From assembly GCA_009783205.1 (NCBI GenBank), contig WRHO01000001.1, positions 151,530 to 215,529 of the forward strand: 64,000 bases of DNA, given 5' to 3'. Positions 4,007 through 64,000 of the stretch are shown one piece after another (the first letter of the stretch is position 1; each line of letters begins with the position of its first letter). The notes beneath the pieces are model-generated. The model did no database searches and had not been told where the DNA came from. It saw only the letters and a list, made by a program, of their open reading frames with translations. This DNA comes from Oscillospiraceae bacterium. Lineage in GTDB: Bacteria; Bacillota; Clostridia; Oscillospirales; Ruminococcaceae. The position numbers and the translations under genes are program-made.

Positions 4007-4008
4007 TG

Positions 4009-4043
4009 GCAGTTGACAGTTGACAATTGTCAGTTGACAGTTA
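4009..4043. repeat. intergenic CAACTGTCAATTGTCAACTG-type repeat, copy 1
   Basis: GGCAGTTGACAGTTGACAATTGTCAGTTGACAGTTA. Confidence 0.9.
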
Positions 4044-5799: not shown

Positions 5800-6309
5800 A
5801 TGGACGCATACGAAAAGCTAATTAAAACAAATTCGGTCGACGACACAATTAAATCCGGTGAAAACTTCGCAAAAAGCCTAAAAAGCGACACCGTTGTTTT
5901 ATTTTACGGCGATATGGGTGCGGGAAAAACTCACTTTGTAAAAGGAATGGCGATGGGGTTGAGCATAACCGACAATGTAACGAGTCCTACCTTCTCTTTA
6001 GTCAACGAGTATTTCGGCGAGCTTTCTAAACTAATACATTTTGACCTTTTCAGAATAAAAACCGCCGACGATTTGTATGCAATTGGCTTTTTTGATTATA
6101 TTGGTAAAGGCAAACAAGAGATAAGCCCAAAGGACGGGCTTTGCTCGTCCGCAGGGCGAATCTTGACGACGGATAGAGGTATAATCGCGATTGAATGGGC
6201 AGAGAATGTTCCCGAGCTTAAAAATGAATTAACCGAATACTACACGGTGAAAATAGAAAGAATCGCCGATAATGAAAGGAATATAACCATTGCTTATTCT
6301 CGGACTTGA
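5800..6309 (+). CDS. tsaE: tRNA t6A modification ATPase TsaE, with an in-frame palindromic insertion
   Basis: GDMGAGKTHFVKGMA, TSPTFSLVNEY, IEWAENVPEL. An extra segment KQEISPKDGLCSSAGRILTTD lies between the DYIG and GIIAIEWAE motifs. Confidence 0.9.
   Translation: MDAYEKLIKTNSVDDTIKSGENFAKSLKSDTVVLFYGDMGAGKTHFVKGMAMGLSITDNVTSPTFSLVNEYFGELSKLIHFDLFRIKTADDLYAIGFFDYIGKGKQEISPKDGLCSSAGRILTTDRGIIAIEWAENVPELKNELTEYYTVKIERIADNERNITIAYSRT
6115..6170 (+). repeat. palindromic element, locus C, inside the tsaE coding sequence
   Basis: CAAGAGATAAGCCCAAAGGACG...CGTCCGCAGGGCGAATCTTGACGAC; 50 bp matches 39139-39188 with one mismatch. Confidence 0.95.
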
Positions 6310-6981: not shown

Positions 6982-7443
6982 ATGAAAAACGAAGAAAGAA
7001 TTTTATCCATACTCGAAGGTATGCAAAAGGAAATGACAGGGATGCGCGGCGATATTACAGAGATGCGCGGCGATATTACAGAGATGCGCGGCGATATTAC
7101 AGAGATGCGCGGCGATATTACAGAGATGCGCGGCGATATTACAGAGATGCGCGGCGATAATATAGAGATGCGCGGCGATATAGCAGGTCTGAAAAAAGAA
7201 ATGGCGGGTGTGCAAGAAGGAATGAAAAAAATGAACACCCGAATGACAGATATGCATAACAGCATTTGTAAGATTGAAATTGAACACGGTGAAAAATTAG
7301 GTTTATTATCCGATTCTTTGCCTATGACGAAAATTGTTCTTCAAAAAGTCGATAAGCTTCAAGATACGGTCGATAAGCTAAAATTCGGCGACGACGTCAT
7401 TAAGCTCGTAAATATAATTGAAAGCAAAAGCAAGGAGAAGTGA
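6982..7443 (+). CDS. coiled-coil protein with MRGDITE heptad repeats
   Basis: ORF with RBS; 21-nt in-frame tandem repeats. Confidence 0.75.
   Translation: MKNEERILSILEGMQKEMTGMRGDITEMRGDITEMRGDITEMRGDITEMRGDITEMRGDNIEMRGDIAGLKKEMAGVQEGMKKMNTRMTDMHNSICKIEIEHGEKLGLLSDSLPMTKIVLQKVDKLQDTVDKLKFGDDVIKLVNIIESKSKEK
7037..7185 (+). repeat. 21-bp tandem repeat (GAGATGCGCGGCGATATTACA), about seven units
   Basis: Consecutive near-identical 21-bp units visible in the sequence, encoding MRGDITE. Confidence 0.97.
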
Positions 7444-38050: not shown

Positions 38051-38743
38051 ATGATTTATGTTACGGGCGATACCCACGGCGATTTAAACCGATTTAAACA
38101 CTCGTTGCTCAAGGGCTTCCGCAAAATAAAAAAACGCGATTCCCTTATTATATGCGGCGATTTCGGGTTTATTTGGGGGGGCGGGAAGGAAGAAAAAAGA
38201 CTTCTCAAATGGCTCGGGAAAAGGCGGTACGACGTGTTGTTCGTCGACGGGGTTCACGAAAACTTTGACCTTCTCGAGGAGTATGAAATCGAGGAATGGT
38301 GCGGGGGGAAGACCCACAAAATAAGCGGTAAGCTTAGGCATTTAATGCGGGGAGAGGTTTTTGAAATATCCGAGAAAAAAGTTTTCACGTTTGGCGGCGG
38401 TGAAAAAAGCGAGGACGATTCAAAGAGCATAAGCGCAAAATGTAAGCCTACCCCCGAAGACTTTGAACGGGCAATTAATTCGTTACAAAAGCATAATTAT
38501 GAGGTCGATTACATTATAAGCTATGAGCCGCCGACAATGATTACCGAGTTTTTGGCGTTAAACGAAAACGTCAGCGATAATTTGAGTCATTATCTCGACG
38601 AAATAAACCAAAAGACCGATTATGAACGGTGGTTCTTCGGGAGACATCATATTGATAAAATAATACCGCCAAAGTATTTCGCGTTGTTCAATAACGTAAT
38701 AAGCACAGAATATGACCCTTTAAGTAAGGTAAACAAGAGCTAA
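38051..38743 (+). CDS. metallophosphoesterase
   Basis: YVTGDTHGDLNRF, ICGDFGFIWGG, GVHENFD, FGRHH. Confidence 0.88.
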   Translation: MIYVTGDTHGDLNRFKHSLLKGFRKIKKRDSLIICGDFGFIWGGGKEEKRLLKWLGKRRYDVLFVDGVHENFDLLEEYEIEEWCGGKTHKISGKLRHLMRGEVFEISEKKVFTFGGGEKSEDDSKSISAKCKPTPEDFERAINSLQKHNYEVDYIISYEPPTMITEFLALNENVSDNLSHYLDEINQKTDYERWFFGRHHIDKIIPPKYFALFNNVISTEYDPLSKVNKS

Positions 38744-38859
38744 AAAGAGGGAATTTATTTCCCTCGTTTAGCTTGACGAAGGTAAACAAGAGCTAAAAAG
38801 AGGGAATTTATTTCCCTCGTTTAGCTTGCCGAAGGTAAACAAGAGCTAAAAAGAGGGAA
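38726..38859 (+). repeat. 53-bp tandem repeat of a palindromic element (locus B, 2.5 units) starting inside the metallophosphoesterase 3' end
   Basis: AAGGTAAACAAGAGCTAAAAAGAGGGAATTTATTTCCCTCGTTTAGCTTGMCG repeated with period 53. Confidence 0.97.
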
Positions 38860-38888: not shown

Positions 38889-39125
38889 ATGGCAGATTTT
38901 AATTATGAGGTTACGGCAGAATTGGGCGTTATTTCCGAAAACGCAAAAGGCTGGCAGACTAAGCTTAACATGGTAAGCTGGAACGGGGGGGAGCCTAAGT
39001 TCGACATTCGCCCTTGGTCTCCCGACGGCGAGCGTATGGGCAAAGGGATATCGCTCACCGAGGAAGAGATGAACCAATTGATGGTTCTTTGGAACGACAG
39101 GGGGTCGGAGGACTCATTTGAATAA
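38889..39125 (+). CDS. PC4/YdbC family ssDNA-binding protein
   Basis: LGVISENAKGWQTKLNMVSWNGGEPKFDIRPWSPDGERMGKGISLTEEE. Confidence 0.88.
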   Translation: MADFNYEVTAELGVISENAKGWQTKLNMVSWNGGEPKFDIRPWSPDGERMGKGISLTEEEMNQLMVLWNDRGSEDSFE

Positions 39126-39132
39126 AGCTAAA

Positions 39133-39190
39133 CAAGTGATAAGCCCAAAGGACGGGCTTTGCTCGTCCGGAGGGCGAATCTTGACGACAG
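39133..39190 (+). repeat. palindromic element, locus D (50 bp nearly identical to the insert inside tsaE)
   Basis: ATAAGCCCAAAGGACGGGCTTTGCTCGTCCGGAGGGCGAATCTTGACGAC vs 6121-6170, one mismatch. Confidence 0.95.
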
Positions 39191-39199
39191 GTAAAGCTA

Positions 39200-44337: not shown

Positions 44338-47019
44338 ATGAAAAACAAAAAAGTTATATCGCTTTTGCTTACATTGGCGATAATTCTCGGCATTGTACCT
44401 ATTGCGACAATCAGTTCGGACGAACCCTCGGTGTCGGTACAATTGATGGCGCGAACGACCTATAATGAAAACTCGGCATTAAGCGAGAAAACAGTTAAGG
44501 GTGACCCTATCGCAATTGATGATGACGGAGATTACAGCGTTTTACTTAGTGATTTAAGTAGCCGTAGCTTTACTGACCTCGCGATTCGCTCGGTTGGTAC
44601 CGAATTTGGCAGCGGGGCAGGACAACTCGGAACTTCGACCGCCGCTCCCGAGGAGTTTGAAGACGTAAAAATTGAAATAACTTCAATTGAAGCGACGGGT
44701 ACGACAATTTCTCTAAAAGACTCTGTTGGAATTCCTCTTGTGAGTACCGATACGGTTATGCAAAATCGTGTCGCAGTTCAGTTGTGGAATGCGTATTATG
44801 CACAGGATAACCGCATTGGTACAAGCACCGGTATTACTAATCCAAACGTAGGTAAATGTAACCAATGGTATCAAGACCCGAATTGTGTTTGCACAAGCAC
44901 AACTTGGGAAAGCTGTCCGAGAGAAGTTTTCGCGCTTGTTTTCCCGAATGCGACCACTTCAATAAAAGTCAATTTCACAGTCAGCGGTTTAAACGAATCT
45001 TCTGAATGTGACGTATGCGGTCAATATACCTGCGTCGACCGCGAGTGTGTACCGGCGGGCGCGGTTCCCGTAAGACTCATTGCGAGAACGACCGCAAACG
45101 GTGGTAGCGTTCATAAAGGCGACGCCGTTATGGTTACGCCTACCCCGAACGACAAAATATACACCGCAACAATGCCGTTACCGGGCGGCTCGAAACAAAT
45201 TGCGAACTTCGCGCTTCGCGCCCCCGGAATCGAATGGGGTTCCGAGGGTGACGAGGTTACAACCGCCGTTAAAGTGCCGTCTGCTTTTAACGCCGCAACG
45301 GTTACTATTATCTCCGTTACCGCAAACTCCGGATTAGACGATATGGAGCCGAAAAACGGAACAAATCTTCCGTTTATTTCACAAGGCAACCCGATATTAG
45401 ACGGTTACGCCGATATCCAATTCTGGAACGCTTGGGACGTCAATAACGCCCATGTTCAAGGTGTTGACGATGTTGACGGCGGCGAATGGGGCGGTCGTAT
45501 GCTTAGCTTCGCCGCTTCAACCGAATTGATAACCGTTAAATTTATGGTAAGCGTTGACGGTAGCGGAACCTGTGAAGACGGAACCTGTAAAAAACCGGAA
45601 TGTCCGGTTTGCGTAGAAAACTTCTGCCCCACCTGTAAAGACCCCGAATGTAACGGTTGCTTGGACGTCGTGTTACAGGCGAGAGTCATTTGGGCTGGCG
45701 GCTATGAAGGCAACACTGATACCGGTTGGGACGATTTCCACGAAAGCGAAAAAATTAATATAAAAGTAGACGATACAAATAAAACCTATAAACAGACAAC
45801 AACTATTCTACAGCGTCACCTTCCGACCTGTACATCTAACGACAAATGCTGTGTACTTGAAGCTCTTTCGGATATCAGAGTTGGTCAATACGGTACAATT
45901 TCGGGAGATAAGGAAGATGAAATTAACCCGGGCGGCGCGATAAAGAATATCAACGGCCCGTTCAGAGAGGTAGCTTTCACCGTTAAAAAGGTTGAAATTA
46001 ACGAAGAAAACGCGCCTTTATTAGACCATTATGTTCGCCCCTGGTTCATAGCGAGAGACGACGACCCCATATGCTTAGCAGACCATCCCGACCCTAATAA
46101 GAAGTGTTACCACGGTGTCGGCGGACATTGTACACCGGAAGATTGGTTATGTCCGCACGATGTACAAGAAGGATTTGCGTCGGCGTCTGTGTACAACGCT
46201 TGGTGGGAGCCTCATCAGTTGTTGAAGCTCGGCGCGGGAACACAGGTTGAACATGACTTTTGGTCACAATCGGGCGGTGCTAATATGATTAAATATAAGC
46301 CCGGAACAAACATCACAAAAATAACGGTTGAATATTCTTTATGCTTTACCGAAAAAGATGCAAACGGCGAATACAAAAAACGCTGTGACAGATGTAACGG
46401 TTGTGATAAGCTCAACTGTGTAAACTGTGGCGGGTGCAACTGTACGGTATTTGACGCGCATCAGGTTTGCGGTTGCGCGCAATGCTTCCCTAAAAAATAC
46501 AGAGAAGATTTCACAAAAAGCGGTATAGACAGAATTGAACACGGAAAATGTGAACTCTGCGGTTGTAAAAAATGTTTCCCTCCTAACGGCAAATGCGGCG
46601 TCGCGGGTTGCCCGACGTGTACAGACGTAACAACGACTCCTCCGCCTCCCCCTCCTCCCCCGTCAAAATGCGAAGCCGGCCCGGGAAAAACCCCCTGCTT
46701 AGAATACGATTGTCCCATATGCAATAAAGACAAGGAATGGTTAATATTAGGCGGTATTCTTGGCAATGACGATGTAACAATCTTTGACGCTATGGAAATT
46801 CTTATGTACCTCGTTAAGGTTAGCGATTGTGTTATCCTTAAGGGCAACGACAATGTAACGGCGGAACAAGCGATGAAAGCCGCTATTATAAGCCCCGAGG
46901 GTTTTGAAGCCGGAGAGCCGACAATATTCTGTTTTATTGAAGTTCTTTTGTACCTCGTTAAAATGGACGGAATTGCAATCACCGGTAAGCATATTGCCCC
47001 CGCGCCTAAAGCTGAATAA
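44338..47019 (+). CDS. large secreted protein: three beta-rich repeats, Cys-rich CxxC modules, Pro linker, C-terminal dockerin-like module
   Basis: Signal peptide; repeats LMARTT/LIARTT/LQARVI...VQLWNAYY/IQFWNAWD/VYNAWW; CDRCNGCDKLNCVNCGGCNC; PPPPPPPP; DVTIFDAMEILMYLVK. Confidence 0.75.
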   Translation: MKNKKVISLLLTLAIILGIVPIATISSDEPSVSVQLMARTTYNENSALSEKTVKGDPIAIDDDGDYSVLLSDLSSRSFTDLAIRSVGTEFGSGAGQLGTSTAAPEEFEDVKIEITSIEATGTTISLKDSVGIPLVSTDTVMQNRVAVQLWNAYYAQDNRIGTSTGITNPNVGKCNQWYQDPNCVCTSTTWESCPREVFALVFPNATTSIKVNFTVSGLNESSECDVCGQYTCVDRECVPAGAVPVRLIARTTANGGSVHKGDAVMVTPTPNDKIYTATMPLPGGSKQIANFALRAPGIEWGSEGDEVTTAVKVPSAFNAATVTIISVTANSGLDDMEPKNGTNLPFISQGNPILDGYADIQFWNAWDVNNAHVQGVDDVDGGEWGGRMLSFAASTELITVKFMVSVDGSGTCEDGTCKKPECPVCVENFCPTCKDPECNGCLDVVLQARVIWAGGYEGNTDTGWDDFHESEKINIKVDDTNKTYKQTTTILQRHLPTCTSNDKCCVLEALSDIRVGQYGTISGDKEDEINPGGAIKNINGPFREVAFTVKKVEINEENAPLLDHYVRPWFIARDDDPICLADHPDPNKKCYHGVGGHCTPEDWLCPHDVQEGFASASVYNAWWEPHQLLKLGAGTQVEHDFWSQSGGANMIKYKPGTNITKITVEYSLCFTEKDANGEYKKRCDRCNGCDKLNCVNCGGCNCTVFDAHQVCGCAQCFPKKYREDFTKSGIDRIEHGKCELCGCKKCFPPNGKCGVAGCPTCTDVTTTPPPPPPPPSKCEAGPGKTPCLEYDCPICNKDKEWLILGGILGNDDVTIFDAMEILMYLVKVSDCVILKGNDNVTAEQAMKAAIISPEGFEAGEPTIFCFIEVLLYLVKMDGIAITGKHIAPAPKAE

Positions 47020-47146
47020 GAGCGGAGGTGTCGGTGGCTGTGCCGCCGAGCAGTCCGCTTGACAAAGCCTAAAGCTGAATAAGAGCGGAGGTGTCGGTGG
47101 CTGTGCCGCCGAGCAGTCCGCTTGACAAAGCCTAAAGCTGAATAAG
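47005..47146 (+). repeat. 63-bp tandem repeat of a palindromic element (locus E), starting at the gene 3' end
   Basis: CCTAAAGCTGAATAAGAGCGGAGGTGTCGGTGGCTGTGCCGCCGAGCAGTCCGCTTGACAAAG, period 63. Confidence 0.97.
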
Positions 47147-48580: not shown

Positions 48581-48653
48581 GCTTCTATGGCGCAGTAGGT
48601 AGCGCGCATCCTTGGTAAGGATGAGGTCATCGGTTCAAATCCGATTAGAAGCT
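48581..48653 (+). tRNA. tRNA-Thr (GGT)
   Basis: Cloverleaf: GCTTCTA/TAGAAGC acceptor, CATCC-TTGGTAA-GGATG anticodon arm, ATCGG-TTCAAAT-CCGAT T arm. Confidence 0.93.
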
Positions 48654-48757: not shown

Positions 48758-48791
48758 GAGGTCATCGGTTCAAATCCGATTAGAAGCTTTT
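48758..48791 (+). repeat. 34-bp duplicate of the tRNA-Thr 3' end
   Basis: GAGGTCATCGGTTCAAATCCGATTAGAAGCTTTT identical to 48623-48656. Confidence 0.97.
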
Positions 48792-55373: not shown

Positions 55374-57344
55374 ATGAACAAATTTGAATTAAAATCACAA
55401 TTTTCACCGACCGGTGACCAGCCTCACGCTATTGACGACTTAGTGAACGGCATTTTAAACGGCGACCGCGAGCAAACCCTTATGGGCGTAACTGGTTCAG
55501 GTAAAACCTTCACAATGGCTAATATAATCGCGAGCGTCAATCGTCCGACGCTCGTTTTGGCGCACAATAAAACCCTCGCCGCCCAATTGTGCGGCGAGTT
55601 TAAAGAGTTTTTCCCGAACAACGCCGTCGAATATTTTGTCAGCTATTATGATTATTATCAGCCGGAGGCGTATATCCCCGGAACCGATACATTTATTGAA
55701 AAAGACTCGGCAATAAACGACGAAATTGACCGCCTTCGACACTCGGCTACGTTCTCGTTGGCGGAAAGGCGCGACGTTATTATCGTTGCGAGCGTATCCT
55801 GTATATTTTCGATAGGCGGAGCGGAGGAATATCGCTCTAATGTTATCTCATTGCGAAAGGGTATGGAAATATCGCGAGACGACGTTATGCGTAAATTAGT
55901 CGGGATTCAATACGAGCGCAACGACGTCAACTTTACGCGAAATAAATTCCGCGTTCGCGGCGATGTGGTTGAGGTATTTCCCGCCGGAAATCCGGTAGAG
56001 CGAGCGTTGAGAATTGAATTTTTTGGTGATGAAATAGAAAGAATTTCGGAAATAGAGGTTGTGTCGGGAAAGCCGCTCAACCAAATGAGTCATGCCGTGA
56101 TTTTTCCCGCTACTCATTATATCGTTGATAAAGAGCGGCTCGAGAACGCGCTCGAGGATATTCGCAAGGAGATGGAGGAACAGGTTGAGCTTTTCACAAA
56201 TTCACACAAGCTTATCGAGGCGCAAAGAATTGCACAGCGAACTATGTACGATATGGAGATGCTCCGCGAAATAGGCACCTGTAAAGGAATCGAGAATTAT
56301 TCCCGCATATTGGCAGGAAGAAAACCGGGAAGCACCCCCGTTACGCTTATTGACCATTTTCCCGACGATTACCTACTCATGGTTGACGAGAGCCACGTAA
56401 CTCTTCCACAGGTGCGCGGAATGTACGGCGGAGATTTCGGTCGCAAAAAGAACCTTGTCGATTACGGGTTTAGGCTTCCGTCCGCTTACGACAACCGCCC
56501 TATGAATTTCGACGAATTTTACAAAAAAGTGAATCAAGTTGTTTTCGTATCGGCAACGCCGTCGGCTTTTGAAAAAGAAAAAAGCGCGAGAATCACCGAA
56601 CAGGTTATACGCCCGACCGGATTATTAGACCCAAAGATTACCGTAAAGCCGGTTGAAGGACAAATAGAGGATTTGCTTTTTGAGATAAATAAGCGCGCGG
56701 AAAAAAAAGAGCGTGTTTTAATAACCGCGTTGACCCAAAAAATGGCGGAGGACTTAACGTATTATCTAAAAAAATTCGACGTTAAGGTGACCTATATGCA
56801 CTGTGACATAGACACAATGGAGCGTATGGAAATTATACGGGATTTGCGGTTGGGTGAATTTGACGTTTTGGTGGGGATAAACCTTTTGCGCGAGGGTCTC
56901 GACCTCCCCGAGGTGTCATTAGTCGCAATTCTCGACGCGGACAAGGAAGGCTTTTTACGAAGCGAGACCTCGCTCGTTCAAACAATAGGAAGAGCCGCCC
57001 GCAATGCAGACGGCGAAGTTATAATGTATGCCGATTCGGTGACCCGCTCGATGGAGGCGGCAATCCGCGAAACAAATCGCCGCCGCGAAATTCAAGAGGC
57101 TTTTAATAAAGAAAACAACATCGTTCCTAAAACAATAATCAAAAATGTGCGCGACGTTCTCGAAATTACACGCAAAGACGACTCTGATAAAAAAAGCGGC
57201 AAGGGCAAAAGGAAAAAGCTCACAAAGTCCGAAAAAGACACGCTTATCAAAAAATATACTGCGCTTATGAAGGAAGCGGCAAAGCTTCTCGATTTTGAAC
57301 AGGCGGCATACTACAGAGATATGATAGTCGAATTGCAAAACTAA
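55374..57344 (+). CDS. uvrB: excinuclease ABC subunit B
   Basis: [68 protein letters not shown]; start at ATG 55374 with GGAG RBS. Confidence 0.97.
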
Positions 57345-57345
57345 A

Positions 57346-57378
57346 CTGTCAACTGTCAACTGTCAATTGTCAACTGTC
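57346..57378. repeat. intergenic CAACTGTCAATTGTCAACTG-type repeat, copy 2
   Basis: AACTGTCAACTGTCAACTGTCAATTGTCAACTG. Confidence 0.9.
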
Positions 57379-63296: not shown

Positions 63297-63350
63297 AACG
63301 TCAAGCAAACTGCTCGGCGGTAAAGCCACCGACGCCTTTGCTCTTGTTTG
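63297..63350 (-). repeat. palindromic element, locus F (same family as 47005-47146)
   Basis: Minus strand AAACAAGAGCAAAGGCGTCGGTGGCTTTACCGCCGAGCAGTTTGCTTGAC matches locus E with compensatory stem changes. Confidence 0.85.
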
Positions 63351-63577: not shown

Positions 63578-63613
63578 ATCAACTGTCAACTATCAATTGT
63601 CAACTGTCAATTG
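63578..63613. repeat. CAACTGTCAATTGTCAACTG-type repeat, copy 3, in the 23S-5S spacer
   Basis: ATCAACTGTCAACTATCAATTGTCAACTGTCAATTG. Confidence 0.9.
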
Positions 63614-63616
63614 CCG

Positions 63617-64000
<384 letters not shown>

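Follow-up and report, generated by a model that had tools for sequence, protein, structure and literature searches.

The tsaE gene of this Oscillospiraceae genome carries an in-frame insert that we interpret, with a probability of about 85%, as a member of a REP/MITE-like family of short, non-autonomous mobile hairpins that was amplified in one Oscillospiraceae clade, is moved in trans, and is translated and tolerated. The features that bear on this reading in the window, by which we mean the whole 64,000-nt stretch of DNA that was analysed, are collected in Table 1.

Table 1. Positions in the window of the tsaE gene, its insert and other members of the repeat family.
Feature	Position	Strand	Evidence or remark
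tsaE ORF with insert, 169 aa	5800..6309	+	PF02367 E=6e-33, TIGR00150 E=4.8e-27
Net insertion in tsaE, 69 nt = 23 aa, KQEISPKDGLCSSAGRILTTDRG	6112..6180	+	alignment with TsaE of relatives
Element core in tsaE, AACAAGAG-tip-CTTGACG, imperfect hairpin	6113..6168	+	consensus fold z = -2.15
Tandem array, same foot, tip AAAAAGAGGGAATTTATTTCCCTC, 53-nt period, 2.5 copies	38726..38859	+	
Second type-1 copy, intergenic	39131..39186	+	no spanning ORF of >=100 aa
Tandem array, related element, tip GGAGGTGTCGGTGGCTGTGCCGCCGAGCAGTCC, altered ends, 63-nt period, 2.3 copies	47004..47146	+	
Single copy, same foot, GGCGTCGGTGG tip	63299..63348	-	

The PF02367 and TIGR00150 matches in the tsaE ORF end at residues 101-103, directly ahead of the insert. 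A TsaE protein was matched in 59 of the 60 relatives searched, and the aligned sequences lacked any counterpart of the insert: the match stopped near residue 104 in nearly all of them and, where both flanks were matched, ended at residue 102-104 and restarted at 125-127. The alignment reads DYIGKG-KQEISPKDGLCSSAGRILTTDRG-IIAIEW here versus DYIGKGVIAIEW in the nearest relatives, so that the net gain is 23 aa (69 nt), a length identical to the tandem period of the type-1 element to which this copy belongs. The first-pass annotation had anticipated an extra in-frame segment of about 20 aa, and such a segment is indeed present here and missing from the orthologs, which have no homologous loop in its place; the element size that it gave, 50-56 bp, has to be replaced by a gained unit of 69 nt. 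Because AAAGG and AGAGG lie on the two flanks, the placement of the insert is ambiguous by a few bases. The sequence GGN AAA GGN at this place in the nearest relatives makes a diverged target duplication a plausible origin of these flanks, but it is unprovable at the tsaE copy. An assembly artefact is unlikely at this site because it lies deep within a long contig, an argument that does not extend to several copies of the WQXP genome, which are located at contig ends.

An AlphaFold2 model of TsaE was built with 25 aligned sequences and reached a pLDDT of 88 overall, with values below 50 at residues 113-123. The model fits the solved TsaE structures of B. subtilis, T. maritima and H. influenzae, with the fold kept, and the insert is predicted to lie without secondary structure between a helix at 97-100 and a strand at 128-132. 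Since the modelled residues are disordered and lack secondary structure, the insert is best regarded as a flexible loop on the protein surface, the possibility that the first-pass annotation had proposed to check. Just downstream of tsaE and tsaB, the ORF at 6982-7443 contains a different kind of repeat, seven 21-nt tandem units (MRGDITE) at 7036-7181.

The segment is repeated elsewhere in the window. As claimed beforehand, 50 bp at 6121-6170 match 39139-39188 with one base different, and the match widens to 6105-6181 and 39123-39199 with 90% identity over 77 nt. The copy at 39.1 kb is intergenic, downstream of the point where a small ORF stops; the possibility that it is a duplicate of tsaE was rejected, given that nothing outside the element is similar to tsaE. 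The 19-nt hairpin core was found twice in the window, compared to 0.02 occurrences expected by chance. Pattern searches of the whole genome (1.91 Mb, 49 contigs) detected 24 copies of the 30-nt type-1 core on both strands with no more than 3 mismatches, versus 0 for the reversed control, and a search with the hairpin foot located about 28 further sites carrying the same foot and other tips. Head-to-tail tandem copies are frequent, in arrays of 2-4 units with periods of 33, 53, 61, 63, 64 or 69 nt. The Rfam search of the window returned no family matching the element, the type-1 pattern gave 0 matches in IMG/VR, and plasmid and phage records contained no match to the element. The copy-rich contig C20 encodes ordinary proteins (EF-Tu, an ABC transporter, a GGDEF protein and an RNB-domain ribonuclease), and none of the ORFs tested there proved to be a mobile-element gene.

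Other repeats were observed in the window. The last 34 nt of a tRNA-Thr(GGT) gene (48581-48653) are repeated without a mismatch 135 bp downstream (48758-48791), a repeat that resembles the trace of an element integrating at a tRNA. Heptanucleotide tandem repeats (CAACTGT / AGTTGAC) are located at 4007-4042, 57335-57378 and 63578-63622 and look similar to the short tandemly repeated repetitive sequences of cyanobacteria.

Comparison of the copies revealed that the foot, AARGYWAA[C/G]AAGAG ... CTTGAC[G/A], is conserved and that the tip can be exchanged. The form AACAAGAG...CTTGACG is joined to many different tips, the foot is bulged, and the shortest tips have 3 nt, the longest more than 40 nt. 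At the termini, pairing is limited to the short foot CAAG/CTTG, and no autonomous partner was found. On the minus strand, the end with the tag reads CGTCAAG in copies with the C/G pair of end bases and TGTCAAG in G/A copies, and the end opposite the tag reads GTTTAGC or CTTT(A/T)GC. The last tag base is coupled to the base ahead of the stem: ACAAG occurs with GACG in 46 copies and AGAAG with GACA in 18, compared to 2 mixed copies (Fisher 3e-14, computed on copies that are not independent), and in a larger set the counts were 61 and 34 versus 2 mixed. Tip classes including CGGAGG, CTTACG, CCAAAG and ATAAGCCC were found with both end types, which means that either tips and ends have been reassorted or both ends have changed together more than once. 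Interchangeable tips and end bases that change in step are new here.

As for how the copies spread, an enzyme supplied in trans would insert the element, probably by recognising the folded foot and the tag, and at least some insertions would duplicate about 9-11 bp of the target. Clean direct repeats flank two copies, TATGATATAAT (11 bp, L120 of the WQXP genome) and TTTTGTAGA (9 bp, L015), in a shared register that ends just before AGTA... and restarts right after the tag. The L015 copy (1486-1570), which is of type 1, sits exactly at a stop codon, and its gene is left intact because the 9-bp flanking repeat contains the stop TAG. When all single copies are taken together, matching flanks are in modest excess (p = 0.018, 1/200 and 0.01). 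In most type-1 copies the tag is followed by TCGGGT (or ACAACT), which is not expected from target duplication alone; a target duplication starting at the conserved TCGGGT is therefore doubtful in most copies, and the ends of the element can be placed only approximately. The upstream flank AAAGC is strongly preferred, and since AAAGC is common at gene starts such as ATGAAAAAAGC, this preference may explain many N-terminal insertions. We tentatively suggest, at somewhat less than even odds, a previously undescribed transposition system without a Y1 transposase that recognises the hairpin foot and the tag at the other end, requires matching end bases, carries the tip as free cargo and generates a short target duplication.

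Movement by a RAYT/IS200-type Y1 transposase, which would make the copies ordinary REPs or REPINs, is unlikely. Dispersed copies with a bulged-foot hairpin and an unpaired tag at one end would suit such an enzyme, intragenic copies are likewise found among the GTAG REPs and REPINs that go with RAYT, and the coupled end bases recall the pairing of guide and cleavage site. However, the coupling (C with G, G with A) is not Watson-Crick compensatory, even if C/G copies allow a pair between the final C of the tag and the opposite G, and the tag is CGTC/TGTC instead of GTAG. No RAYT was found: Y1_Tnp (PF01797) had no match in any of the four carrier genomes, all drafts, in a search whose control was positive in 5 of 14 known genomes. 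In addition, the possible target duplications are not expected of Y1 transposition. Tyrosine recombinases were also considered as the partner and rejected, as they occur in 7 of 7 genomes searched, carriers and non-carriers alike, and the loci fetched around them contained no convincing element, the one match looking like chance.

To determine how the copies relate to genes, reading frames were followed across every copy fetched and family searches were run on the spanning ORFs. Of the 24 type-1 copies, no fewer than 11 are situated in frame within recognisable genes, one of them with a match below the family cut-off. The hosts are TsaE, a TerB-domain protein, ComEC, MutS, a PIN-domain protein (PIN7), a DUF6734 protein (the one below the cut-off), a DltB/MBOAT protein, YfhO, an LRR protein, PcrA and PolA. 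Together these copies use three of the six reading frames, none with a stop: those in ComEC and YfhO are antisense, and that of the LRR protein is read in a different frame. The PcrA copy is located in the linker ahead of the Tudor domain, and the MutS and PolA copies follow MEKA and MK, respectively. A radical-SAM protein contains the minimal 33-nt unit repeated in frame near its N-terminus (KQERSLTS units). In the related carriers G003 and WQXP, copies were found in genes for an AddA-like helicase, a PLD protein, a PP2C phosphatase, a FolC-like Mur ligase-domain protein, a spore-germination protein and an OpuAC-domain protein. Empty sites are not confined to TsaE. ComEC lacks the insert in three relatives (L195, L198 and L199), where the alignment has a plain gap of 25-26 columns, and the N-terminus of MutS lacks it in relatives that read, for example, MDKSNLTPM or MNKENLTPM. 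The MutS of genome G021 (L204), which has no element, carries an N-terminal repeat of its own (LTPDAKA, three times), so the MutS N-terminus seems tolerant of additions.

Open frames and lengths in multiples of three are compatible with translation of the insert. In the genes compared a type-1 unit adds 69 nt (3 x 23) and is open in three frames, which suggests that the insertions are translated and tolerated; those in loops, linkers and N-termini would be made as unstructured peptide, presumably neutral, and would survive selection. We regard it as improbable that the insert is kept out of the protein, whether by removal from the RNA, by ribosome skipping or, for N-terminal copies, because the element forms a 5' leader with a TTG start inside it. 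The element contains AGGGCGAATCTTG, so TTG initiation is possible for polA and mutS, and some N-terminal REPs have been argued to be extragenic (Di Nocera et al. 2013, PMC3733652). This caveat does not touch the internal copies (TsaE, ComEC, YfhO, PcrA, DltB-like and PIN), whose frames are open; wherever a net gain was measured it was a multiple of 3, and all three frames used are free of stops. In Rickettsia conorii, a Gmk protein with an RPE (Rickettsia palindromic element) is translated and active (Abergel et al. 2006, as cited in PMC2229807). It is very improbable that an integron-type tyrosine recombinase uses the repeats as attC-like sites, for although the imperfect conserved foot with extrahelical bases, the variable terminal structure and the tandem arrays resemble an attC layout, the units are not separated by ORF cassettes, inspection showed no GTTRRRY/RYYYAAC boxes, there is no clear association with recombinase genes, flanking duplications are possible, and copies are scattered in both orientations.

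The family is restricted to a narrow group. The foot search returned 34 copies in G003 and 26 in G006, and WQXP (G060) also has many; other relatives gave 0-3 matches that by their look are mostly chance matches in coding sequence. The four carriers (the source genome, G003, G006 and G060), all draft MAGs, form one clade on the MutS tree with 100/100 support, and a single origin or arrival of the family in their ancestor is therefore most likely. Carriers named in public records are the Oscillospiraceae MAGs Emb289P3bin33 (WQXP) and Nt197P3bin88 (WRJN, probably the same genome as G003, judging by contig positions that the two share), which we take from their isolate codes to be of termite-gut origin.

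Returning to the insert as a mobile element, dispersed in-frame copies in unrelated conserved genes, together with orthologs of TsaE, ComEC and MutS that lack the insert, make a mobile hairpin of the coding-palindrome kind, working like RPEs, the best reading of the family, in line with the parallel drawn in the first-pass annotation. RPEs (Ogata et al. 2000, 2002) and the coding palindromes of Wolbachia are likewise short dispersed hairpins, both intergenic and in frame in conserved genes, where they add peptides some tens of residues long; relatives have empty sites, and no transposase is known for them. In contrast to RPEs, the present family resides in a member of the Bacillota (Oscillospiraceae), has exchangeable tips and head-to-tail arrays, and consists of 33- to 69-nt units compared to 105-146 bp (PMC2229807); the likeness is one of structural parallels, and we claim no homology. 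Target duplications of 3 to 26 bp have been described for YPAL elements (PMC2229807).

A second comparison is with the CGTC-tagged REPs, reported from five phyla (Proteobacteria, Chlorobi, Bacteroidetes, Spirochaetes and Thermotogae), Firmicutes not being among them (PMC3733652). They include RPE-4 and RPE-6 of Rickettsia and dRS3 of Neisseria, often with TGTC variants; they lack a transposase of their own, and their insertion sites include DNA repair genes (PMC3733652). Their tag is defined as CGTC, or TGTC/CCTC, unpaired at one hairpin end, and the present family has such an unpaired CGTC tag, with its TGTC variant, beside a stem that starts with A/T. It also has copies in repair genes, including those for DNA polymerase I and a UvrD/Rep helicase, and no dedicated transposase. 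On the other hand, their stem of 8-9 bp, loop of 4-5 nt and 3-nt unpaired tail, mostly CCA, are not found here, and they form head-to-head dimers, with clusters being rare, whereas the present copies stand in head-to-tail tandem. Because of these differences in stem, loop, tail and dimers, we do not file the family among the CGTC REPs. The open-access literature that was searched contained no report of such elements for Firmicutes/Bacillota or for termite-gut Oscillospiraceae.

The copies in mutS, polA and pcrA echo the bias towards DNA repair genes noted in PMC3733652, and the combination of linked end bases and swappable tips offers a testable handle on how CGTC-type repeats move. Early reports presented coding palindromes as peculiar to Rickettsia and Wolbachia; lists of intragenic tagged REPs from other phyla followed. 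Another radiation, seemingly independent of the first, would make peptides derived from selfish hairpins a recurrent route by which proteins gain segments.
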